Assembly: GCA_017983515.1 (NCBI GenBank)
Contig: JAGOBF010000005.1
Coordinates: forward strand, 124,001-188,000
Direction: 5' to 3'
Length of the DNA: 64,000 nt
Source of the DNA: Promineifilum sp.
Lineage (GTDB): Bacteria > Chloroflexota > Anaerolineae > Promineifilales > Promineifilaceae
This document shows, one piece after another, positions 17,664-29,118 of this stretch (its first letter is position 1; every line of letters starts with the position of its first letter). Below the pieces are notes generated by a model, which made no database searches, was not told where the DNA came from, and worked only from the letters and a program-made list of their open reading frames with translations. Both the position numbers and the translations under genes were made by a program.

Positions 17664-18785
17664 TCAGGCGTTGAAAAATTGAGCGATGGCCTCGGCAACA
17701 ATAAGCGGGGCCTCGGGCGACAGGTCGGGATACATGGGCAGGGACAACAACGACCGTGCCGCGTCCTCCGTCACGGGCAAGCTGCCCGGCCGATATCCCA
17801 AACGCGCATAGGCAGGCTGTAGATGGACCGGTGCGGGATAGTGAATGGCCGTGCTGATGCCTCGCTCGCGCAGATGAGCGCGGAGTTCCTCGCGTCGCTC
17901 CGTGCGAATGGCGTAGAGATGGTAGACGGGGCGGTCGCCTGGTCGAACGACGGGCAAGACCAGGGGCAAGCGGGATAATCTCTCGTCATATGTCGCCGCC
18001 AATCGCCGCCGGCTGTCATTCTCCTCGTCCAGATAGCGCAGCCGCACGCGCAGGATAGCCGCCTGCAGTTCGTCGAGACGACTGTTAAATCCGGGCTCAT
18101 CACTGATATAACGCTCACGCCAGCCATACTGGCGCAGTGAAAGCAGGCGCTCGGCCACGTCCGCGCGCGAGGTGGCTATCGCCCCACCGTCGCCCATAGC
18201 GCCTAGATTCTTGGTGGGATAGAAGCTGAACGCGGCAGCATCGCCCAGCGTACCGACCAGGCGACCGGCATAGCGCGCGCCGTGGGCCTGGGCGCAATCC
18301 TCGATGACCACTAGCCCATGCTCCCGCGCGAAGGTCAGGATGGGCGTCATGTCGGCCGGGCATCCGTAGAGGTGGACGGGGATGATGGCCTTTGTACGCC
18401 CGGTGATGGTCTTCTCCAATTCTCGCGGGTCGAGGGTCAGCGTACCCGATTCTACGTCCACCAAACGGGGGCTCGCGCCGGATAACTCGATAGCGGCCAC
18501 CGTCGCCACAGCGGTGTGACTGACGGTGATCACTTCGTCCCCCGGTCCGATGCCACAGGCTCGCAGCGCCAGCAGCACCGCGTCCGTCCCCGAAGCGACG
18601 CCGGCCGTGTGCGACAGGCCGAGATAGCGCGCGAACGCCTCCTCAAAAGCCGCTACTTCGGTGCCCAGAATATACCAGCCACTTTCCAGCACCGCCGCAA
18701 CGACAGGGTCAATCTCCGGCTGCAGGCGACGATAGGCCGCTTTCAGATCGACAAAAGGGATCATTTCGACAGCGGCCGTGGTCAT
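17664..18785 (-). CDS. DegT/DnrJ/EryC1/StrS-family sugar aminotransferase
   Basis: 373 residues. PLP-dependent aminotransferase of nucleotide keto-sugars. The family opening IPFVDLKAAYRRL, the phosphate-binding SGTDAVLLAL, the Asp of VVIEDCAQAHGA and the PLP lysine Lys192 in FSFYPTKNLGAMGDGG are all present. Expected product is an amino-deoxy sugar nucleotide. TAATG coupling to the SDR gene upstream suggests that this SDR or another makes its keto-sugar substrate. Confidence 0.93.
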   Translation of the reverse strand: MTTAAVEMIPFVDLKAAYRRLQPEIDPVVAAVLESGWYILGTEVAAFEEAFARYLGLSHTAGVASGTDAVLLALRACGIGPGDEVITVSHTAVATVAAIELSGASPRLVDVESGTLTLDPRELEKTITGRTKAIIPVHLYGCPADMTPILTFAREHGLVVIEDCAQAHGARYAGRLVGTLGDAAAFSFYPTKNLGAMGDGGAIATSRADVAERLLSLRQYGWRERYISDEPGFNSRLDELQAAILRVRLRYLDEENDSRRRLAATYDERLSRLPLVLPVVRPGDRPVYHLYAIRTERREELRAHLRERGISTAIHYPAPVHLQPAYARLGYRPGSLPVTEDAARSLLSLPMYPDLSPEAPLIVAEAIAQFFNA

Positions 18786-19792
18786 TAGAGGTAGTGCTCG
18801 CGATGGGCGCGGAAGTATTCAATCGTCCGAGTCAGACCCTCGCGCAGGCCGACTTGCGGCCGCCAGCCCAGCTTGCTGCGAATTTTGCGATAGTCACCGT
18901 AGAAGTCGCCGATGTCGATGCGTCTGCGATCCTCGGGGAACGGCTTGAGCGCGAAATCGCCGCCGCCGTTCACCTCGATCATCAATCGTGCCAGATTAAG
19001 CAGGTTGATCGGCTCGTCGCCGCCCAGGTTATAGATTTGCCCATCAGCCACGTCATGGGCCGCGGCCATCAGCATGGCCTCCACCACGTCGTCGACGTAG
19101 TTGAAATCGCGCACCTGTAAACCGTCGCCAAAGATATTGAGGGTCTGCCCCTCCAACAACTGCCGTATCCACCAGCCAATGAACGTCTGTCGAGCGTCGC
19201 GAATGCGCATGCGCGGCCCGAAAGTATTGGTAAGCCGTAGTGATACGGCCCGCAAGCCATAGACGTTGTGATAGACGATATGGTACCACTCGCCGGCCAG
19301 CTTGTTGATGCCGTTCACGTCAGTGGGCTGCAAGGGGTGGCGCTCGTCAACCGGTAAATAGGTAGGGCGGCCGTAAATCTGCCGCGTGCTGGCGAAGACG
19401 ATTTTGGCCGTCGGATTGCCGTGGCGGCAGGCCTCCAGCAGGGAGAGTTGGCTGCGGGCGTTGATCTCCAGATCAGTATAAGGGTCGATCATGCTGTCGG
19501 TATGACTGACCTGTCCAGCCAGATTGAAGATGATGTCCTGCTCCTGAACCAGGTAGCGCAATCCGTATTCATCGCGTATATCGGCAATGTTGATGCGCAA
19601 CCGATCCTCAATGTTATGGACGTTGAAGATATTGCCGCCGTATTCGGGGATCAGCGAATCGACGATTAATACGTCAGCACCCAGTTCGACGAGGCGATGG
19701 GCCAGATTCGAGCCGATGAAGCCCAAGCCGCCCGTGATCAGGACGTGCTTGCCGCGAAAGCCAGCCAGGTGGTCAGTTGGAACCGTCGGCAT
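18785..19792 (-). CDS. NAD-dependent epimerase/dehydratase-family SDR with Asn in place of catalytic Tyr
   Basis: 335 residues. Extended SDR fold: NAD-binding ITGGLGFIGSN (about 19-29), acidic VDSLIPEYGG after the second strand, FASTRQIYGRP with the Ser/Thr of the active site. At the usual YxxxK the sequence reads DVNGINKLAGEWY, giving Asn160 where Tyr is expected, with Lys164 kept. This substitution is the notable point: chemistry must differ from ordinary 4-epimerases or 4,6-dehydratases, or another residue serves. It overlaps the GT2 gene upstream by 20 bp and the aminotransferase downstream by one base. Confidence 0.88.
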   Translation of the reverse strand: MPTVPTDHLAGFRGKHVLITGGLGFIGSNLAHRLVELGADVLIVDSLIPEYGGNIFNVHNIEDRLRINIADIRDEYGLRYLVQEQDIIFNLAGQVSHTDSMIDPYTDLEINARSQLSLLEACRHGNPTAKIVFASTRQIYGRPTYLPVDERHPLQPTDVNGINKLAGEWYHIVYHNVYGLRAVSLRLTNTFGPRMRIRDARQTFIGWWIRQLLEGQTLNIFGDGLQVRDFNYVDDVVEAMLMAAAHDVADGQIYNLGGDEPINLLNLARLMIEVNGGGDFALKPFPEDRRRIDIGDFYGDYRKIRSKLGWRPQVGLREGLTRTIEYFRAHREHYL

Positions 19793-20564
19793 AAGTTTGA
19801 TTAGGGGTTGGAGTTGGGTTGTCGGCCGCGGCCGGCCGAGCGCCTTCTTTGCGCCATACCAGTCTGGTCCACAACCCGGTTAGATCGCGCGCCACCTGGG
19901 CCAGACGGCGAAAACGGAAAAACTGCGATTTGCCGTAGGCGCGGTGAAAGTGGTGTACCGGCGTTTCGGTCAGCCGAAAGCCGGCATCCTGAACTTTCTT
20001 CATCAGCTCGACGCAGATGACGCCGCTGTCGCTGGTCAGGGCGATGTTGTCGAATACTTCGCGGCGCATCAACCGAAAATCGCAATCGACATCTTTCAGT
20101 TTGAGACCGAAGGCGAGCTTGATGGTGTACTGATAGATACGGCCGATGATAATGCGGTGCAAGGGGTCCTGGCGCTCGATCTTCCACCCGTTGATAAAAT
20201 CCACGTCATCGCTAATCAGCGCCGCCAGATTCTTCAACTCGCGCGGATCGTACTGCGCATCGCCGTCGGTGTAGAAAATCCAGTCCCGAGTCGCGCTGTA
20301 GAAGCCGGTGCGCAGCGCGCCGCCATAGCCTCGATTCTGGGGATGGTGGATGATCCGCACCTCGTTGGGATAGATGCGCGCCAGTTCATCGAGAACGGCG
20401 GCCGTGTGATCCTGGCTACCATCGTTGACCACGATAACCTCGTAATCGTCGGTCAATTCGCGCAAGGTCAGGAGGACGGAGATGACCATGCTGCTGATGG
20501 TTCCAGCGTCGTTGTAGGCCGGGAAGAAGGCGGAGATACTGCCGGTATTGTTCATAACAGTCAC
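19773..20564 (-). CDS. Family 2 glycosyltransferase, dolichyl-phosphate-sugar synthase-like
   Basis: 263 residues. Opening SISAFFPAYNDAGTISSMV, donor site EVIVVNDGSQDHTAAV, GYGGALRTGFYSATRDWIFY and the metal site TDGDAQYDPREL mark the DPM1/undecaprenyl-phosphate-sugar synthase branch, which makes polyprenyl-phosphate sugars for GT-C enzymes such as the PMT-like proteins nearby. No C-terminal TM pair is seen. Start is GTG at 20564 or the in-frame ATG at 20555; ribosome site evidence is weak for both. First gene of the GT2-SDR-DegT run. Confidence 0.87.
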   Translation of the reverse strand: MTVMNNTGSISAFFPAYNDAGTISSMVISVLLTLRELTDDYEVIVVNDGSQDHTAAVLDELARIYPNEVRIIHHPQNRGYGGALRTGFYSATRDWIFYTDGDAQYDPRELKNLAALISDDVDFINGWKIERQDPLHRIIIGRIYQYTIKLAFGLKLKDVDCDFRLMRREVFDNIALTSDSGVICVELMKKVQDAGFRLTETPVHHFHRAYGKSQFFRFRRLAQVARDLTGLWTRLVWRKEGARPAAADNPTPTPNQTYADGSN

Positions 20565-20869: not shown

Positions 20870-22789
20870 CTAGGGAGCAACCGTTATGTCAACGAGTTGC
20901 GCGAAGGTGGTATTCCGCATTGTTTCGAGACGCGCGCCCGATGCGGCGTCATACAGACCGATGACCAACTTATAGGTGCCAGGAAGGGTCTCTGCGGGCA
21001 ATTCGATGGCGTAAGGGTCGGATACGGTTTCGGCCGCGGGCCAACAGGTAGAGGGCCAGCGCCCGCCAACCGGCCACCCGTCTTGTTGAGCGATTATCGT
21101 CTGTGACGAATCGAGCAGCTGGACAAACACGGTGTAGGGCCGCAGGGTCGGTCCATCCGCGCGCCAATAGAGTGTCAGGTCGAGAACGCCGCCGGCCGCG
21201 GCCGTGGTCTGGGGAAAATTGTAGCCGATCAGTCTTATCGTGTGATCGCCGGGTGCGATAAATGCCTCATCCGTCACGGCCGCCGGAACGGCCGGCGCGA
21301 TCTCCGGCCGCTCAATCGGCAGAATGACGGCATAGAATGTGCGCCAACTCAGACCAATGCTGAGGGCCAGGACTAATTGGGCTACGAGCATCAACCATAG
21401 TCCGAGCCGATCGCTCGACCGGCGGGCAAATAGCCCCCCCGCCACCACGGCCGCCGCCGGCATAAACACCAGCCACAGACGGCCGACTTCCCCGCGGGTC
21501 GAACCAGCCAGGTTGATCACAACGAGCAGCGCAAGCAGAAGCAAAGCAATTCGCGCATCCGGCGAAGTCCCTTCCACGCGGCGAACAGCGCCCCATGCGC
21601 GCCACAGCAGGCCCACGACGACCAACGGCCCAGCGAACAGGAAGAGGTCGATGAGATTGGAACCAAGCCACCAGTCATAGCGGCGCACGCTGGTCACCAG
21701 TTCATAGTGCTGATCGAGACCAACCCGAGCCACCACCCAGGGCGCGACGCCCCAGCCAAGCCAATAGACCAGCCAGAACGCCGCAACCGCCACGGCAAAA
21801 CCCAATACCATCGTCCATCTGCGAAGGGCAGGCTCGTGGCTCGACGAGGGTCTTAAGGCCCACCAGATCGCGTAAAACCCTAACAATACCCCCCAGGCGA
21901 CATTGCCGAGGCTCAGGAAGCTCATCAGCGAGACAGTCAACCCGGCCGCCAAAATCGAGGCCAGACGCCCTTCCTGAAGCCCCACAACCAGCCAAAGCAG
22001 AGATACGAGCGACAAAAAGGCAAAGATCTGATCAGGTGTGGGCACGAAGACGAGCAGGGCGGGCAACGTCCCAGCCAATAAAGCCACTGCCCGCGCCGGG
22101 ACGCGTCCAAACCACAGGCGGCCGAGGTGATAAGCGGGCAGGATGGTCAAGGCCCCCAGGAACACTGGCAACCAGGCCCACAAGAGAAGGGAGGCAGCCG
22201 TCGCCGGCGGCCGGGCCAGAAGCCAGAGGTCGGTACAGCGCCAATAGGTGGCCGGTCGAGCCAACCATGCGGCCAACCCCGGCAGCCGGCGTAGAGCATG
22301 GTCGGTCAACCAGTGTGCGGCGACGAAACCGGGCGGATGGGTGCGGGCGTGATCATTGTCAAAAGAGGTCATCAACTCGGGGAACCGGCGCAGGGCCGCG
22401 CCCAGATCGTCGATTTCGCCGGCCGTGGCCAAATAGCCGCTGGAGGCCTTCGACAGGGTGCGGTCGACCAGCTCCGCGCCGACGGCCGGGCGGTCGGCAT
22501 AGACGAAAGCCAGTTGCAAGGCCACGTTAAGAAGAATAAGGGCGGTCAGGGGCAGAACAACCCGGTCATTCTCATGGCGCAGCCACCAACCGCCCAACGC
22601 CGCCAACAACATCGCTACCAGCAGCGAGGGCCACCAGCGCGCCACCGGACGCAGCAAGTACGGCCAGTACCATTCGCTCGTTTCCGGGGCCGGGCCGCGC
22701 AGACTGGGCCAGGCATCGGTCAAGATGAGTCCCGCCAGAACAAGCGCAAGTAGCAGAAAGAGAAAACCCAGGAGGCGGCCGCGCGGCAT
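20870..22789 (-). CDS. PMT-like polytopic glycosyltransferase with C-terminal beta-domain
   Basis: 639 residues. An N-terminal TM segment, then further hydrophobic segments, with a first large outer loop containing DNDHARTHPPGFVAAHW, the position where GT39/ArnT-type enzymes have their catalytic acidic residue and the PPG/PPL turn. About 500-639 is a soluble beta-rich module (TIRLIGYNFPQTTAAAGG, LVIGLYDAASGARLETM) similar in layout to that of the 5158-7521 protein. Likely transfers a sugar from polyprenyl phosphate on the outer face. The ATG at 22789 lies 8 nt after a -10 box. Confidence 0.78.
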   Translation of the reverse strand: MPRGRLLGFLFLLLALVLAGLILTDAWPSLRGPAPETSEWYWPYLLRPVARWWPSLLVAMLLAALGGWWLRHENDRVVLPLTALILLNVALQLAFVYADRPAVGAELVDRTLSKASSGYLATAGEIDDLGAALRRFPELMTSFDNDHARTHPPGFVAAHWLTDHALRRLPGLAAWLARPATYWRCTDLWLLARPPATAASLLLWAWLPVFLGALTILPAYHLGRLWFGRVPARAVALLAGTLPALLVFVPTPDQIFAFLSLVSLLWLVVGLQEGRLASILAAGLTVSLMSFLSLGNVAWGVLLGFYAIWWALRPSSSHEPALRRWTMVLGFAVAVAAFWLVYWLGWGVAPWVVARVGLDQHYELVTSVRRYDWWLGSNLIDLFLFAGPLVVVGLLWRAWGAVRRVEGTSPDARIALLLLALLVVINLAGSTRGEVGRLWLVFMPAAAVVAGGLFARRSSDRLGLWLMLVAQLVLALSIGLSWRTFYAVILPIERPEIAPAVPAAVTDEAFIAPGDHTIRLIGYNFPQTTAAAGGVLDLTLYWRADGPTLRPYTVFVQLLDSSQTIIAQQDGWPVGGRWPSTCWPAAETVSDPYAIELPAETLPGTYKLVIGLYDAASGARLETMRNTTFAQLVDITVAP

Positions 22790-22927: not shown

Positions 22928-25156
22928 ATGCAGCAACCACCCGCGTACACGACCCATCACGATCACCGCGGCATTTCGTCGGCCGACGAGGTCGATTTGA
23001 CCGTGATCGTGCCTACCCGTAATGAGTCGAACAACATCAGCCCTCTGCTGGACAGGCTGGAAGCCGCCCTCGAAAATAAAAGCGCTGAAATTCTGTTCGT
23101 CGATGACAGCACCGATGAGACCGCAACTATCATCCGACGCGAAGCGGCAAGCCGCTCTCTGCCCATTAGACTCATCGCCCGGCCGGAGAGCCGGCGTAAC
23201 GGGTTGAGCGGCGCGGTCGTCGAAGGGATGGAAGAGGCGCGCGGGCGGTGGTTCTGTGTCATAGATGCCGATTTGCAACACCCCCCGGAATCGATCCCCC
23301 AGTTGTTGGCCCAAGCTTCCCGCACGGGGGCTGATGTGGTCATCGCCAGCCGGCGGGCCGATATGTGGGGGCCGGTCGGGTTGAGCCGTGCCCGTGCGCT
23401 CACCTCGCAGCTTCTCACCATCCTGGCGCGCATGGTTTTCCCGCGCGTGTTGAAGAATGTATCCGATCCGCTAACAGGCTTTTTCCTCGTCCGGCGCGCG
23501 GCCATCGACATCGTCACACTCCAGCCGGAAGGGTTCAAAATATTACTGGAGATTCTCGCTCGTCACCCCGACCTGCGCGTCACCGAATTGCATTTCGAAT
23601 TCGCCCCGCGCCGTGAGGGCCAGAGCAAGGCCGACCTTAATGAGGGTATGCGCTTCTTTCGCCACCTGACGCGCCTGCGCCTGACAGTCAATCAGCATCT
23701 CATTCGTTTTCTGATCGTGGGCCTAATGGCCGTGATGCTCAACCTGGCGTTGTTGGGCGGGCTGGCAAGCGCCGGGTGGCCGGTGCTCCGAGGGGCGACT
23801 GTGGCCGGCGCGGCAACCATTGCCGGTCTCCTGCTGGGCGAGATATGGGTGTTCAGCGATCGGCCACGCGGCCCGGTTAGTCGTCGGTTGGCGGGCATTC
23901 TGCTCCTCGGCTTTCTTTTCCTTTTCATCGTCTATCTGCCCGTGATCTGGGGGGTGGCGGTGCGTCTCGGCGCACCGGTTCTTGTGGGCGGGCTGGCTGC
24001 CATGTTTGTCGCCGGATTCGTCTACTACCTGTTTTCCGAGCAATGGATTTGGACGCGCGGCCTGATGATGCGTCCACGCGAAAACCTCTATTACGATATC
24101 CACGGCATACTGGCGATGGCGTCGCAGATCCCGCTGAACGATCTCGAATACTTTCTGGCGTCCACGCCGCCTGCTCGGGTCGATCTGCAACTTCGCGTTG
24201 ATCGCCACGGAACGCCCAGCCGCGTACCAGGGGCCATCTGCTATGATGAGCAACTCGGCCGTTTCGGCTTTGGCCTGACAGTGATCCCCGGCGATTATAC
24301 GGAGATCGTCGTATCGCCCCTGTTGGAAACGTCGCCCGCCTTTGTCTATACCAACGTTGTAGAGCCGGTCTTGCGTTGGCTCATGGTCACCAGAGGCTAC
24401 TCCTTGGCGCGTGCCGGGGCGGTACGGTCGGACAAGAGAAAGGGCAAAGAGTCGCCGCAAGGCTGGCTTTTCACGGGTCGCTCGGATCTCGGTTATGCGT
24501 TGGGCCGACTCTGTCGGGAGGAACAATTCACCTTCATGGGCGATGATCGCGTCATCATCAGCCGCGATGGGCTGCTGCACAGCTTCCCCAAGCTCGTGAC
24601 CGCGCGGCCGGAAATGCTGCCTGGCCAAGCCCGCACACTTCGCGCCTCCGTCGCCTTGCGCACCCAGCGGTTATTGTACTCTCGACCCATTCGCGGGTTG
24701 GGGTTGTTTCTCAGCCAGCGGCGGCTGCCGGCGGCCACCGTCAATACCTATCTGCAACGGATCATCCCCCAACCCAAATATCCACTCCATTCCCTGATCG
24801 ACGGTATCGTCTATAGTGAGGTGGCGCTTCCGACCCTGCTCACCGTGCTGGAAAAAGGAGGCAAAGGGGCCGTCCCCCTGTCACTAGAAACGGCCATCGA
24901 CCGGCTACTTGAACCCGATTATTACGCTTACGGTTTCCGACCCTACCCGCTCCTGATGGAAGCGCTTTCCACGTGGGACGGCCGCGATTGGCTCGAAGAA
25001 GAGCGCCAGATTTTGCGCTCCGGGCTGGCCCGTTGTCGCGTCCTCAGCTGGGGCCATGAAGACGACACGTGGTGGAAAGAGATCATGTCGCTCATACGCG
25101 ATCCTCTGGAAGGCGGCCAGCTTTACCAGGCCTCATCCTCCATCAATCCGGTCTAA
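22928..25156 (+). CDS. GT2-GtrA fusion with degenerate HprK/PEPCK-like C-terminal domain
   Basis: 742 residues in three parts. About 22-245: GT2 of the DPM1 type (DLTVIVPTRNESNNISPLL, VIDADLQHPPESIPQLL). About 250-375: GtrA-like four-helix membrane domain. About 385-742: a soluble region whose pattern follows HPr-kinase/PEPCK-like P-loop domains: VTRGYSLARAGAV, then GRSDLGYALGRL at 517-528 where a GxxxxGKT loop is expected, and FTFMGDDRVII with Asp539-Asp540 at the Walker B place. The P-loop Lys is missing (Tyr523 at GK), so kinase activity is doubtful. GT2-GtrA pairs make or flip polyprenyl-phosphate sugars; the third domain may regulate this. The domain call is from pattern memory. Confidence 0.75.
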   Translation: MQQPPAYTTHHDHRGISSADEVDLTVIVPTRNESNNISPLLDRLEAALENKSAEILFVDDSTDETATIIRREAASRSLPIRLIARPESRRNGLSGAVVEGMEEARGRWFCVIDADLQHPPESIPQLLAQASRTGADVVIASRRADMWGPVGLSRARALTSQLLTILARMVFPRVLKNVSDPLTGFFLVRRAAIDIVTLQPEGFKILLEILARHPDLRVTELHFEFAPRREGQSKADLNEGMRFFRHLTRLRLTVNQHLIRFLIVGLMAVMLNLALLGGLASAGWPVLRGATVAGAATIAGLLLGEIWVFSDRPRGPVSRRLAGILLLGFLFLFIVYLPVIWGVAVRLGAPVLVGGLAAMFVAGFVYYLFSEQWIWTRGLMMRPRENLYYDIHGILAMASQIPLNDLEYFLASTPPARVDLQLRVDRHGTPSRVPGAICYDEQLGRFGFGLTVIPGDYTEIVVSPLLETSPAFVYTNVVEPVLRWLMVTRGYSLARAGAVRSDKRKGKESPQGWLFTGRSDLGYALGRLCREEQFTFMGDDRVIISRDGLLHSFPKLVTARPEMLPGQARTLRASVALRTQRLLYSRPIRGLGLFLSQRRLPAATVNTYLQRIIPQPKYPLHSLIDGIVYSEVALPTLLTVLEKGGKGAVPLSLETAIDRLLEPDYYAYGFRPYPLLMEALSTWDGRDWLEEERQILRSGLARCRVLSWGHEDDTWWKEIMSLIRDPLEGGQLYQASSSINPV

Positions 25157-25193: not shown

Positions 25194-25892
25194 ATGGATT
25201 ACAGAAAACCCGCCGTTTTCGGCGAAAATTGGTCACCCAGCCGCTACCAGGTGCTGCCCTACTTTGAGTGGGAGAAGTCCGTACTGGCCCGTCCTGACAT
25301 CCGCCGCATTCTGGAGATCGGTTGCGGTAACGGCTGGAATTTGAGCCGTTTCGCGCAGAACGGCCGCGTTGCCTTCGGCCTCGATACCGTGCCGCAGCGC
25401 GTCGCCCTGGCCCAGACCCACGGCCCGGCGCTGCTGGCCGATGGCCTTCGCCTTCCGTTCGCGGCCGGCAGCCTGGACATGATCTACATCCAACACGTGC
25501 TGCACCACATCGGCGACGTGGAGCGCGCCCTGGTCGAGGTGCGGCGGTGCCTGCGTCCCGGTGGCGTTCTCTTCCTGGTGGAGACGGTCGAGGACAATCC
25601 TATCATCCGCTGGGGACGCCGGCTCTATCCGAGTTGGTTGGGCGACGAGATCAATGCGCCATTTACCTTTGCCGGGTTGGCGACGCAGGTAGCCGACAAC
25701 GGCTTCCGCGTGCAACGGGCCGGGCAATATAGCGTCTTGTTCTGGCTGTGGGAGATCATGCCGGATCAATTTCCTCCGTTGGAAAAGTTGACGCCTTACG
25801 TAGTGCCAGTCGAGCGCGCTCTACAGAAGGGCGTTCGCCGGCTCGGCGCGCATTGCTACTTGGTAGCCGAAAAGGAGACTCTCGGCCGCTAA
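25194..25892 (+). CDS. Class I SAM-dependent methyltransferase (Methyltransf_11 type)
   Basis: 232 residues. Motif I is ILEIGCGNGWNLSRF, motif II acidic residue in FGLDTVPQRV, motif post-I LLADGLRLPFAAGSLDMIY, and the helix IQHVLHHIGDVERALVEV with RCLRPGGVLFLVE complete the family pattern. The acceptor is unknown. It lies between a glycosyltransferase and a flippase gene, so a glycan or lipid-linked substrate is likely but inferred. The flippase gene starts 11 bp after its stop. Confidence 0.9.
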   Translation: MDYRKPAVFGENWSPSRYQVLPYFEWEKSVLARPDIRRILEIGCGNGWNLSRFAQNGRVAFGLDTVPQRVALAQTHGPALLADGLRLPFAAGSLDMIYIQHVLHHIGDVERALVEVRRCLRPGGVLFLVETVEDNPIIRWGRRLYPSWLGDEINAPFTFAGLATQVADNGFRVQRAGQYSVLFWLWEIMPDQFPPLEKLTPYVVPVERALQKGVRRLGAHCYLVAEKETLGR

Positions 25893-25903
25893 CGGCCGGC
25901 GCC

Positions 25904-27184
25904 ATGTCCTCCCTTCGTCTGCGCCTTCAGTTTTTGGGGCTGTCCTCCTCTGCTCTCCAGAGTGGTTTCCTGGCCGTGGCGATGATTGTCGCCGGCGGTT
26001 TCGATTATGCCGCCAACATCGTCGCCGGCCGTCGCCTCATCCCCCTGGAGTTCTCCGTGTTTGTCACGGTGACCGCTGTTCTACAAGTTATGGTGCAGGC
26101 GACCAACGTCATTCGCAACGTCGTCGCCTTTTACACGGCCGAGTCAACCGTTTTCGCCGACGCCTCGGAGCGCGTCGGCATGGTCTTGCGGCGCTCCTGG
26201 CGCTGGGCTTGGCGCTGGGGGCTGGCGGCCGCTGCCACAATGGCTTTGGCGGGGCCGGTTCTGGCCCGGTTTCTGCGAGTCGACTCGCCCTGGCCCTTAT
26301 GGGCGGCGGCCCTGACACTGTTGTTGCTGTTTTTGCGGCCAGTCACCGACGGCACGCTGCAGGGCGTCCAGCATTTTTGGGGCCTCGGCTGGGTGCAAAT
26401 CCTGCAATCCATCGCCCGTCTAGGCTTCACTATCCTGCTGATAGGGCTGGGCGGGCAAGCGGCCGGGGTCATCCTGGCCTTGCCGCTAGGCAGCATTCTG
26501 GCGCTCGGCCTCGCTTTTCTGCTCCTGCGGAACTATTTTCGGGCGTCCCCCTCATCGGCCACGCCGCGACCCATTAGCCGGCAATACTCCCTGATCACCC
26601 TCGTCGGTTTACTGGCCTTCGCGCTCATGGTCAATATCGATCCAATCCTGGTACGGCGCTTGTTTGGTGACGCCACCGCCGCCGCCTATGCCCCCATCGT
26701 GACTTTGGGCAAGATGAACCTGTTCATCCCTCTGGGCATTGGCCTGGTTCTCTTCCCCAAGGCCACCCAACGGCAGGCGGCCGGGCGAGACTCGCGGCCG
26801 GTCTTGTTGCTGGCCCTGGCAGCGACGCTGTTACCCGGCCTGGCACTCACACTATTCTACTGGATCGCGCCGGGGCACATCGTCCACACCGTCTTCGGCG
26901 AAGCTTATGCCGCTCCCGGTGCGGTGCTGGCGCTCGTCGGTCTGGCGACAACACTCTACGCCGGAGTCAACATCTGGCTAAATTACGCCCTTTCCCTTGA
27001 GCGGTACGGCTATATCTACGCCCTGGCAACGATTGTGTCCGCCCAGATCGGGGCCATGCTGCTGTTCCATGCGCGACTGGAATCCATTGCCCTTATCATG
27101 ATAGCGACCGGAGTCACGGCCAATCTCGCCGGATTGCTGACGACATTTCATAAACAGGCCCCACCTCACGTAAAACAGGCGTGA
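25904..27184 (+). CDS. Polysaccharide flippase-like membrane protein (Wzx/MATE superfamily)
   Basis: 426 residues from the ATG at 25904 (the frame is open further upstream but overlaps the methyltransferase). About 12 hydrophobic segments are spread evenly, as in MOP-superfamily exporters: SGFLAVAMIVAGGFDYAANI, LGWVQILQSIARLGFTILLI, NIDPILVRRLFGDATAAAY in the central loop, and LAGLLTTFHKQAPPHVKQA at the end. It would move lipid-linked oligosaccharide across the membrane. No good ribosome site is visible; coupling to the methyltransferase is likely. Confidence 0.82.
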   Translation: MSSLRLRLQFLGLSSSALQSGFLAVAMIVAGGFDYAANIVAGRRLIPLEFSVFVTVTAVLQVMVQATNVIRNVVAFYTAESTVFADASERVGMVLRRSWRWAWRWGLAAAATMALAGPVLARFLRVDSPWPLWAAALTLLLLFLRPVTDGTLQGVQHFWGLGWVQILQSIARLGFTILLIGLGGQAAGVILALPLGSILALGLAFLLLRNYFRASPSSATPRPISRQYSLITLVGLLAFALMVNIDPILVRRLFGDATAAAYAPIVTLGKMNLFIPLGIGLVLFPKATQRQAAGRDSRPVLLLALAATLLPGLALTLFYWIAPGHIVHTVFGEAYAAPGAVLALVGLATTLYAGVNIWLNYALSLERYGYIYALATIVSAQIGAMLLFHARLESIALIMIATGVTANLAGLLTTFHKQAPPHVKQA

Positions 27185-27273: not shown

Positions 27274-29118
27274 ATGCATGATTATTATCTAACGAAGTCG
27301 GATTTTAAGGTCGCCCAGTCCTGTCCGACCAAGCTCTTCTACCACAAGAGGCACTATCCGACCCGCGAGGAAGGCGACGAATATCTAGGCCATTTGGCCG
27401 ATCAGGGATATTTGATTGAGGCTTTGGCCCGCCTATTTTATCCCGACGGCCGCTGGCTGGGATTTCAAAAGGATGTGGAAGCGGCGGCGTGGGACACGAT
27501 GGCCGCCTTGTCGGGCAACGGAACACTATTCGAGGCCACGCTCATCAGCGGCGGCAAACTGGCCCGCGTCGATATTCTGGTTCGGCGGGGCGATGTTTTC
27601 GAGCTGATTGAGATCAAGTCATGCAGCTTTGATCGCCAAAAAAACGACGAGCTCGTCCAAAACGGCCGGCCCAACCTCTTTCGTTCCCCTCGCTCCCCCG
27701 ATGGAATTCGCAGCGAATGGCGGCCGTATCTCGAAGACGCCGCTTTTCAGACCAGCATTCTGCAAGATATTTTCCCCGGGGCGACGATCATCCCTTACTT
27801 GCTCATGCCCGACACCAGCCGCGCTTGCCACATTGACGGGCTGCACCGCCGCTTTGCCCTGCGCCCGGCGCAAGATCACCAGGATCAGTTACCCTATTCC
27901 GACTATACCGGCGACCCGCGAGAGATCCGGCGCAATCCGATGCTGGTGCGCGTCGACGTCTCCGCGGAGATTCAACTGCTCCTGCCCGAGGTCCGCCGCC
28001 GCGCGGATACGTACGTCAAGAGCCTGATCCCGGAATTAACCCGCATCGCCACGCCGCCGTCCACCCACTGCCGCGCCTGCGAGTATCGCATCCCGGACAA
28101 TCAAGAGAGCGGCTTCCATGAATGCTGGGGGCAGATGGCAACGATCAAGCCCCATATTTTCGATCTGTACCACGTGAGCCAGATCCGGAGCGGCGATGGG
28201 CCGGCGGCCGACCAACTGATTGCCCAGGGCAAAGCCGGTCTGTTCGACATGCCCGAGAAATACCTCGCTCGCAGCGACGGCACCCTCGGCGAAAATGCGC
28301 GCCGCCAACGAACACAGATTCAGTGCACCAGAGACCAACGCGAGTGGATCAGCGACGAACTGCGAGATGCCCTGGAGTCACTGACCTACCCGTTACATTT
28401 TGTCGATTTTGAGACCTGCGCGCCGGCCATCCCTCGCTACCAGCGGATGCATCCTTATGAGACGATTGCCTTTCAATGGAGTTGCCACACCATCGTTACC
28501 CCTGATGCCCAGCCACGACACGCCGAGTGGCTGCAAGCAGCCGACATCTTCCCAAACCCGGCTTTCGCCAAGTCTCTCCGCCGGCAAGTGGGTGATGAGG
28601 GATCGATCCTGATCTGGTCGACCCACGAGAAGACTGTGTTGCGATCGGTTCAAAAACAATTGGCCGAACGCGAAGACGGTGAAGGCGATACCGTGGAGTG
28701 GATCGGCCGTTTGTTGGCCGGCGAGCGGATGACTGACCTGAACGACCTTACCCGCAAGCATTACTTCCATCCCCGTATGGGTGGGCGCACGTCGCTCAAA
28801 GTCGTGGCCGATGCGGTGTGGCAAGCCGATCCCCACATCCGCGCCCGCCTGCCGCACTATCATCGGGAGATGGGCACAGGATCAACAAGCCCTTACCAGG
28901 CGCTGCCGCCGCTAGTCATCGGCGACAGGCAAATTGCGGTAGCCGAGGGCGTGGGGGCAATTCTGGCATACTACGCCCTAATAGAGCGGATGACGGCTAA
29001 CGCCACCCTGGAGGTCAGCCGTTGGCGACGCCTGCTCTCGCAGTATTGCGAGCTGGATACGATGGCCATGGTGATGGTGTGGTGGCGCTGGCGACGGCTA
29101 ACCGGGCAGATGGCATAA
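27274..29118 (+). CDS. DUF2779 protein with Cas4/RecB-like Fe-S nuclease domain
   Basis: 614 residues. The N-terminal half looks like a PD-(D/E)xK nuclease with an iron-sulfur cluster: Cys17 (SCPTK), catalytic Asp100 (RVDILVRR), Glu113-Ile-Lys115 (LIEIKSC), then Cys266-x2-Cys269 (CRAC) and Cys284 (HECWG), the Cas4/AddB cysteine layout. The C-terminal half starts with LHFVDFETCAPAIP (Asp378, Glu380) and ends with YCELDTMAMV, the DUF2779 pattern, akin to DEDD exonucleases. Probable DNA nuclease of repair or defence type; no Cas genes are near. GGAGG lies about 7 nt before the ATG. It overlaps the convergent AAA gene by 21 bp. Confidence 0.82.
   Translation: MHDYYLTKSDFKVAQSCPTKLFYHKRHYPTREEGDEYLGHLADQGYLIEALARLFYPDGRWLGFQKDVEAAAWDTMAALSGNGTLFEATLISGGKLARVDILVRRGDVFELIEIKSCSFDRQKNDELVQNGRPNLFRSPRSPDGIRSEWRPYLEDAAFQTSILQDIFPGATIIPYLLMPDTSRACHIDGLHRRFALRPAQDHQDQLPYSDYTGDPREIRRNPMLVRVDVSAEIQLLLPEVRRRADTYVKSLIPELTRIATPPSTHCRACEYRIPDNQESGFHECWGQMATIKPHIFDLYHVSQIRSGDGPAADQLIAQGKAGLFDMPEKYLARSDGTLGENARRQRTQIQCTRDQREWISDELRDALESLTYPLHFVDFETCAPAIPRYQRMHPYETIAFQWSCHTIVTPDAQPRHAEWLQAADIFPNPAFAKSLRRQVGDEGSILIWSTHEKTVLRSVQKQLAEREDGEGDTVEWIGRLLAGERMTDLNDLTRKHYFHPRMGGRTSLKVVADAVWQADPHIRARLPHYHREMGTGSTSPYQALPPLVIGDRQIAVAEGVGAILAYYALIERMTANATLEVSRWRRLLSQYCELDTMAMVMVWWRWRRLTGQMA

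Follow-up and report, generated by a model that had tools for sequence, protein, structure and literature searches.

What does a kinase-like domain do at the end of a lipid-sugar synthase once its own active-site motifs have gone? The question is raised by a protein of 742 residues encoded in the window, the 64,000-nucleotide stretch of Promineifilum DNA analyzed here, in which a GT2 domain and a GtrA part are followed by a third domain (Table 1). The preliminary description of this DNA had read that third domain as a dead HPr-kinase/PEPCK-like fold that could sense a nucleotide or phosphate. The analysis below leads to a pseudokinase that is probably kept as a structural, regulatory, or docking module of the synthase.

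Domain layout and fold of the fusion protein

The reading frame and its three motifs are real, and VTRGYSLARAGAV (residues 487-499), GRSDLGYA (517-524), and FMGDDRVII (536-544) lie at exactly the residues given in the preliminary description. The order proposed there, GT2, then GtrA, then an additional C-terminal part, is borne out by Pfam, which places GT2 at residues 25-193 (E 1.4e-27) and GtrA at residues 260-375 (E 9.5e-5; 23.0 bits, just below the cut-off of 26.1) and finds no family in the last 358 residues. The GT2 residues D59, D60, D113, and D115 are invariant in 23 fusions. Membrane helices are located at residues 257-281, 286-308, 317-346, and 351-369 of the full-length model. A phmmer comparison of residues 1-384 with PDB sequences yields the dolichyl-phosphate-mannose synthase (DPMS) of P. 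furiosus (5mlz, E 3.5e-50) across residues 22-375, a match that identifies the first half as a likely type III DPMS-like enzyme, not a loose GT2-GtrA pairing. The structural match to 5mm1 spans 314 residues (Z 27.9). The P. furiosus enzyme (5mlz/5mm1/9ep0) shares the GT2 domain and the four-helix GtrA-type membrane part with window residues 22-375, but it ends after the membrane part (374-residue construct) and lacks a PEPCK/HprK-fold domain. The GT2-GtrA half is thus a predicted polyprenyl-phosphate-sugar synthase with a cytosolic GT2 domain, in which the lipid would be held by the four-helix GtrA part.

DPMS/GtrB-type enzymes carry their GT2 domain on the cytosolic side. According to hydropathy and the full-length model, four transmembrane helices separate GT2 from the C-terminal domain, so both are predicted to lie on one side of the membrane. 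The model consequently puts the C-terminal domain on the GT2 side, that is, in the cytosol.

Table 1. Positions of the fusion protein, its parts, and the neighboring genes in the window
Feature	Position	Strand	Evidence
DegT/DnrJ/EryC1 sugar aminotransferase	17664..18785	-	Pfam
NAD-dependent sugar epimerase/dehydratase	18785..19792	-	Pfam
GT2 glycosyltransferase, same locus	19773..20564	-	Pfam
Multi-spanning membrane protein with DNDHARTHPPG stretch, GT-C-like by appearance	20870..22789	-	No Pfam match of its own
Triple-fusion ORF, 742 aa: GT2, GtrA/DPMS transmembrane part, PEPCK/HprK-fold domain	22928..25156	+	
GT2 catalytic domain, residues 24-223, with conserved DDS and DAD motifs	22997..23596	+	PF00535 E 1.4e-27
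GtrA/DPMS-type four-helix membrane part	23696..24034	+	PF04138 E 9.5e-5, full-length model, hydropathy, 5mm1 Z 27.9
PEPCK/HprK-fold pseudokinase domain, residues 388-724	24089..25099	+	AlphaFold model, structure search, hhalign
Arg495 at the LHxA His site of intact homologues (HprK His140 position)	24410..24412	+	
Degenerate P-loop GRSDLGYA, residues 517-524; Tyr523 at Lys position, Ala524 at Thr position	24476..24499	+	
Asp539-Asp540, retained (HprK Asp179 region)	24542..24547	+	
FPKLVTA, residues 553-559, retained variant of the family motif (F/Y)PKPxT	24584..24604	+	
R589-P601-N606-Q610-PK617 block, in degenerate and intact members	24692..24778	+	
Methyltransferase (Methyltransf_11), downstream of the fusion	25194..25892	+	Pfam; 11/14 f1 loci
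Predicted membrane protein, flippase-like by appearance only	25748..27184	+	No Pfam match; homologues in relatives' same loci

The fold of the C-terminal domain was approached through a model of residues 388-742, built by AlphaFold on A1, the profile alignment made from the homologues in the window's own family (pLDDT 86.7, pTM 0.87). The best Foldseek matches are exclusively PEPCK (E 1.5e-5), and HprK/P 1knx is found at E 1.4e-3. In VIA-align, ATP-PEPCK comes out on top (Z 13.7; 269 residues, spanning model positions 1-348), ahead of HprK/P (Z 11.0, 137 residues). This result upholds the HprK/PEPCK assignment that the preliminary description had made for residues 385-742, and the domain is modeled with a PEPCK/HprK fold. 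At the level of profiles, hhalign connects the domain to the intact-motif family at E 4.8e-83 and to ten generic HprK-related proteins, themselves gathered with the A1 profile, at E 3.8e-19. These ten proteins match HprK_rel_A (to 2.5e-20), HPr(Ser) kinase, and PF07475 Hpr_kinase_C (to 5.5e-6); the intact relatives match HprK_rel_A (6.6e-9), HprK_rel_B (2.8e-7), HPr(Ser) kinase (5.7e-6), and Hpr_kinase_C (1.2e-5).

Direct searches yield far less. HprK_rel_A (TIGR04352) matches 8 of the 19 relatives in the window's family, at best with E 4.1e-5 and below the cut-off of 200 bits, and the window protein matches neither this model nor TIGR00679 or PF07475. The intact homologue of Kibdelosporangium banguiense (L034) scores 25.8 bits against TIGR00679, which has a cut-off of 240. 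No match to the window's own C-terminal part was found in Pfam, NCBIfam, PDB sequences, or plasmids, and the profiles A1 and A3 recovered no HprK or PEPCK from PDB sequences, the single chance match being Microcephalin (E 0.79). The link to the fold therefore depends on structure and on homologue profiles. A plain membrane or GT extension is ruled out by the soluble α/β fold. Chance resemblance of the motifs is ruled out as well, as 20 intact homologues have LHxA, [A]xTDTGKT, and (S/A)DD aligned at these three positions, in addition to the two hhalign results.

Compared with the known members of the fold, the domain shares the core of HprK/P (TIGR00679, PF07475; 1knx, 1kkl, 2qmh) at model positions 103-348 (Z ~11) and the position of its Asp pair. 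It differs in having lost the equivalents of the Walker A Lys/Ser and of His140 and in being fused to a membrane glycosyltransferase. With ATP-dependent PEP carboxykinase (1ii2, 1j3b, 1aq2), the resemblance extends over the whole domain including the N-terminal part, but identity is 7-13%, the length is ~350 instead of ~530 residues, the P-loop and His are lost, and the gene context is unrelated. The nearest sequence families of the intact homologues are the HprK-related kinases A/B (TIGR04352, TIGR04355), ScmC, and the lasso-peptide kinases of the paeninodin type, which are HprK-like and phosphorylate a small peptide substrate (PMC8498205). The family studied here scores far below the cut-offs of these families and belongs to a lipid-sugar operon instead of peptide cassettes, and the window copy is degenerate.

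Active-site decay and sequence constraint

With the C-terminal domain alone as query, homologues were found in 19 of 98 genomes, a count that includes the genome of the window itself; all 19 genomes belong to one Chloroflexota family, that of the window (f1). The homologues show the same triple fusion wherever the contig is long enough. The A1 profile extends the set to full-length relatives in the Chloroflexota families f51, f61, f63, f83, and f86 and gives weak matches to stand-alone HprK-related proteins. A further relative, L034 from the actinomycete Kibdelosporangium banguiense, has intact motifs; one additional full-length relative was found among 396 Actinomycetota genomes.

The active site of HprK/P is composed of His140, Lys161, Ser162, and Asp179 (PMC9399212). 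All 20 sequences outside f1 carry an LHxA-type His, [A]xTDTGKT, and DD, and all 20 contain the HprK/P Walker A pattern (G/A)x4GK(S/T), which is absent from the window protein. In window numbering, His471, His495, Lys523, Thr524, His562, and His584 are invariant in the 20 intact sequences and are replaced by A, R, Y, A, E, and Y in the window. The alignment with these homologues confirms that the P-loop Lys is lost, as first proposed from the sequence; Tyr523 takes its position. The His140 position, a His in all 20 intact homologues, is Arg495 in the window, and the Asp179 position is retained as D539-D540. The PEPCK catalytic signature, GxxxxGKT with a preceding His, is likewise absent. Homologues with an intact P-loop, in which the preliminary description saw a way to check its proposal, do exist ([A]xTDTGKT), and some of them are themselves GT2-GtrA fusions. 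In the window's own genome, which is 69% complete, no intact copy that could replace the kinase role was found.

The decay is a family trait. The LHxA-position His is absent from 19 of 19 f1 members and replaced by Y, R, K, or Q, and each of the four histidines that never vary outside f1 survives in 0-6% of these 19 members; the polar GT2 invariants are kept at 84%. A GKT remnant persists in 11/19 members, without the first A/G of Walker A and without the histidine. The P-loops of the window's genus read GRSDLGYA, GRGDMGYG, GPTDLGYG, and GLADMGYG, with Lys and Thr lost and the DD pair retained. Other positions have been preserved across f1, namely D539/D540 (17-18/19), K555 (17/19), and T558 (18/19), and R589, P601, N606, Q610, and K617 are mostly kept. 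In two members, L018 and L019, the Asp pair is partly or wholly missing along with about 70 residues, and the C-terminal part is shortened. A test of polar versus nonpolar loss is weakly significant (p about 0.03), and the near-total loss of all four histidines is the stronger sign of decay. Lacking the LHxA-position His and the Walker A Lys and Thr, the window protein is unlikely to bind ATP in the ordinary way. Given the retained Asp-Asp and FPK..T motifs, another ligand is possible for the domain.

In the tree, the 19 f1 sequences group as a single clade (100/99), with the intact f86 fusions next to it; the simplest reading is that intact motifs were ancestral and were lost step by step. 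Close f1 pairs have dN/dS values of 0.00-0.10 in the N-terminal part of the domain and 0.17-0.20 in its C-terminal part; within the window's genus, the N-terminal part gives 0.10-0.18, values that are only indicative because of high dS. The core and the C-terminal part evolve faster than the N-terminal part. By these rates, the domain appears to be under constraint and not decaying freely.

Several irregular copies were noted. In L003 (G007:C458), from the window's genus, an in-frame TAG precedes the last part of the domain, which reflects either a lost tail or an assembly error. Between L008 and L013, 5% of synonymous sites differ in the P-loop core (equivalents of residues 487-562) but about 30% in the rest of the gene, a pattern suggestive of local gene conversion or recombination. 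The GT2 part of an f86 fusion (L068:7192-7862/L040) is split over two reading frames by an apparent frameshift or an assembly error.

Gene neighborhoods of degenerate and intact members

In f1, the methyltransferase follows the fusion in 11 of 14 loci, and GT-C-like and flippase-like membrane proteins are encoded nearby. The window shows this arrangement inside a sugar-modification locus with an aminotransferase, an epimerase, and a second GT2. Homologues of its GT-C-like protein occur in the same loci of relatives (cluster c4), and one of them matches PMT_2. The flippase-like protein probably starts inside its listed ORF. Farther downstream, a 614-residue ORF (27274-29118, + strand) contains the cysteine-rich stretch HCRACEYRIPDNQESGFHEC as well as HFVDFETCAPAIPRY, and we take it to be reminiscent of DUF2779/RecB-like nucleases.

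The gene order of the intact group was established by tblastn with representative proteins across the neighborhoods. It reads GT2, GtrA, HprK-like, GT-C (PMT_2), PF04185 phosphoesterase, Ig-like membrane protein, GH99-like, and sometimes PHP. This operon is present at L066-L082 and L034, in several Chloroflexota families and one actinomycete, and constitutes an unnamed system around an apparently intact HprK-like kinase. The degree of fusion varies. In f61 and f83, the first operon genes are separate, with nearly abutting or overlapping reading frames; L072 and L081 encode a GtrA+HprK fusion; f86 and Kibdelosporangium have the GT2+GtrA+HprK fusion. Another fusion type derived from this operon joins GtrA, HprK, and GT-C (PMT_2-like) in a single 1211-residue ORF (L073:5649-9284, - strand). 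Gene order and domain order coincide, as is classically seen when genes of one operon fuse and their products work together.

The PF04185 phosphoesterases begin with a signal-like stretch, and most end with a membrane helix. The phosphoesterase gene adjoins 14 of 18 intact loci, and of the four exceptions three lie on short contigs; in f1 it adjoins 0 of 14 loci. This correlation may stem from one evolutionary event and falls short of statistical proof. In 32 f1 genomes, one partial match to the phosphoesterase was found, in a genome without the fusion. The pairing of a secreted phosphoesterase with the intact kinase suggests that a phosphate may be added inside and removed outside.

Probable role of the pseudokinase domain

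The explanation that we consider probable is that the window protein is a type III DPMS-like synthase whose cytosolic pseudokinase is retained as a structural/regulatory or docking module. It starts from the computed fold, fusion, decay series, constraint, GT2-side placement, and common operon. The ancestor would have been a kinase with intact motifs, encoded by the next gene in the operon and fused by the joining of adjacent genes. In f1, the active site would first have lost its histidine and its polar lining; in the window's genus the P-loop Lys and Thr would have gone next, with the core fold under purifying selection throughout. The window domain would no longer transfer phosphate from ATP. 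Instead, we infer that it gates GT2 or fixes its position, or that it provides a docking site for partner enzymes encoded in the glycan locus. In view of the faster evolution of the core and C-terminal part and the losses in L018 and L019, some of the domain may just be in decay, and residual ligand or metal binding may persist, given the retained Asp pair 539-540, Lys555, and Thr558.

Some pseudokinases of other folds have turned out to be repurposed rather than dead. Applied here, the Asp pair, Lys555, and Thr558 would bind a metal or a non-ATP ligand, and the domain would catalyze or sense something else. The high retention of these residues, the largely kept R589-K617 positions, and the strong constraint on the N-terminal part fit such a site, but the invariant histidines of the intact group have all disappeared, as have many of its other polar invariants, and two relatives have lost the Asp pair itself, which leaves this reading rather unlikely. 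The sensor proposed in the preliminary description, which would couple lipid-sugar supply to the energy state, is less likely again: the fold is nucleotide-binding, the domain would lie beside GT2 in the cytosol, and 11 of 19 relatives have a GKT remnant in the loop, but the window loop has neither Lys nor Ser/Thr, and in the remnants both the initial [A/G] of Walker A and the histidine are missing.

Least likely is a relic: with the partner phosphoesterase gone, the kinase would have become jobless, and its fused remainder would now be a disappearing passive tail. The distribution of the phosphoesterase (adjacent to most intact loci and no degenerate one, and confined among f1 genomes to one without the fusion), the shortened C-terminal part of L018 and L019, and the TAG in the C-terminal tail of L003 would agree with it. 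Against it, the reading frame is intact in nearly all of the 19 genomes, dN/dS in the N-terminal part is at most 0.10 in close pairs and remains at the low values given above in the window's genus, and some residues are invariant family-wide; in-frame copies, low dN/dS, and invariant residues are therefore unlike a passive tail.

A bolder idea, about as improbable as the sensor, concerns the intact members, which could be a new kind of kinase within lipid-linked sugar synthesis with phosphate as a one-way tag. The cytosolic HprK-like domain would phosphorylate the lipid-linked sugar or its polyprenol, GtrA would carry the product across, the GT-C enzyme would use it, and outside the cell the phosphate would be stripped by the operon's own PF04185 phosphoesterase, which is secreted and membrane-anchored. 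In f1, the phosphoesterase and the kinase motifs would then have disappeared together, with the domain retained as a pseudokinase.

Both halves of the protein belong to known folds and families, and what appears new is the fusion, the pseudokinase series, and the operon. No description of a polyprenyl-phosphate-sugar synthase fused to a PEPCK/HprK-fold domain, of the series, or of the operon was found in the open-access literature searched, and open-access searches on HPr kinase with GtrA, HprK-related kinases, and their fusions returned nothing relevant. Public family libraries leave the C-terminal domain unnamed, and we know of no studied example of a pseudokinase of the PEPCK/HprK fold. The conserved operon order supplies concrete partners in the GT-C transferase and the secreted phosphoesterase. 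Within one fusion architecture, the series from intact motif to complete loss makes the job of the active kinase in lipid-sugar synthesis testable, and the same natural series could show what role remains for a pseudokinase of the PEPCK/HprK fold.
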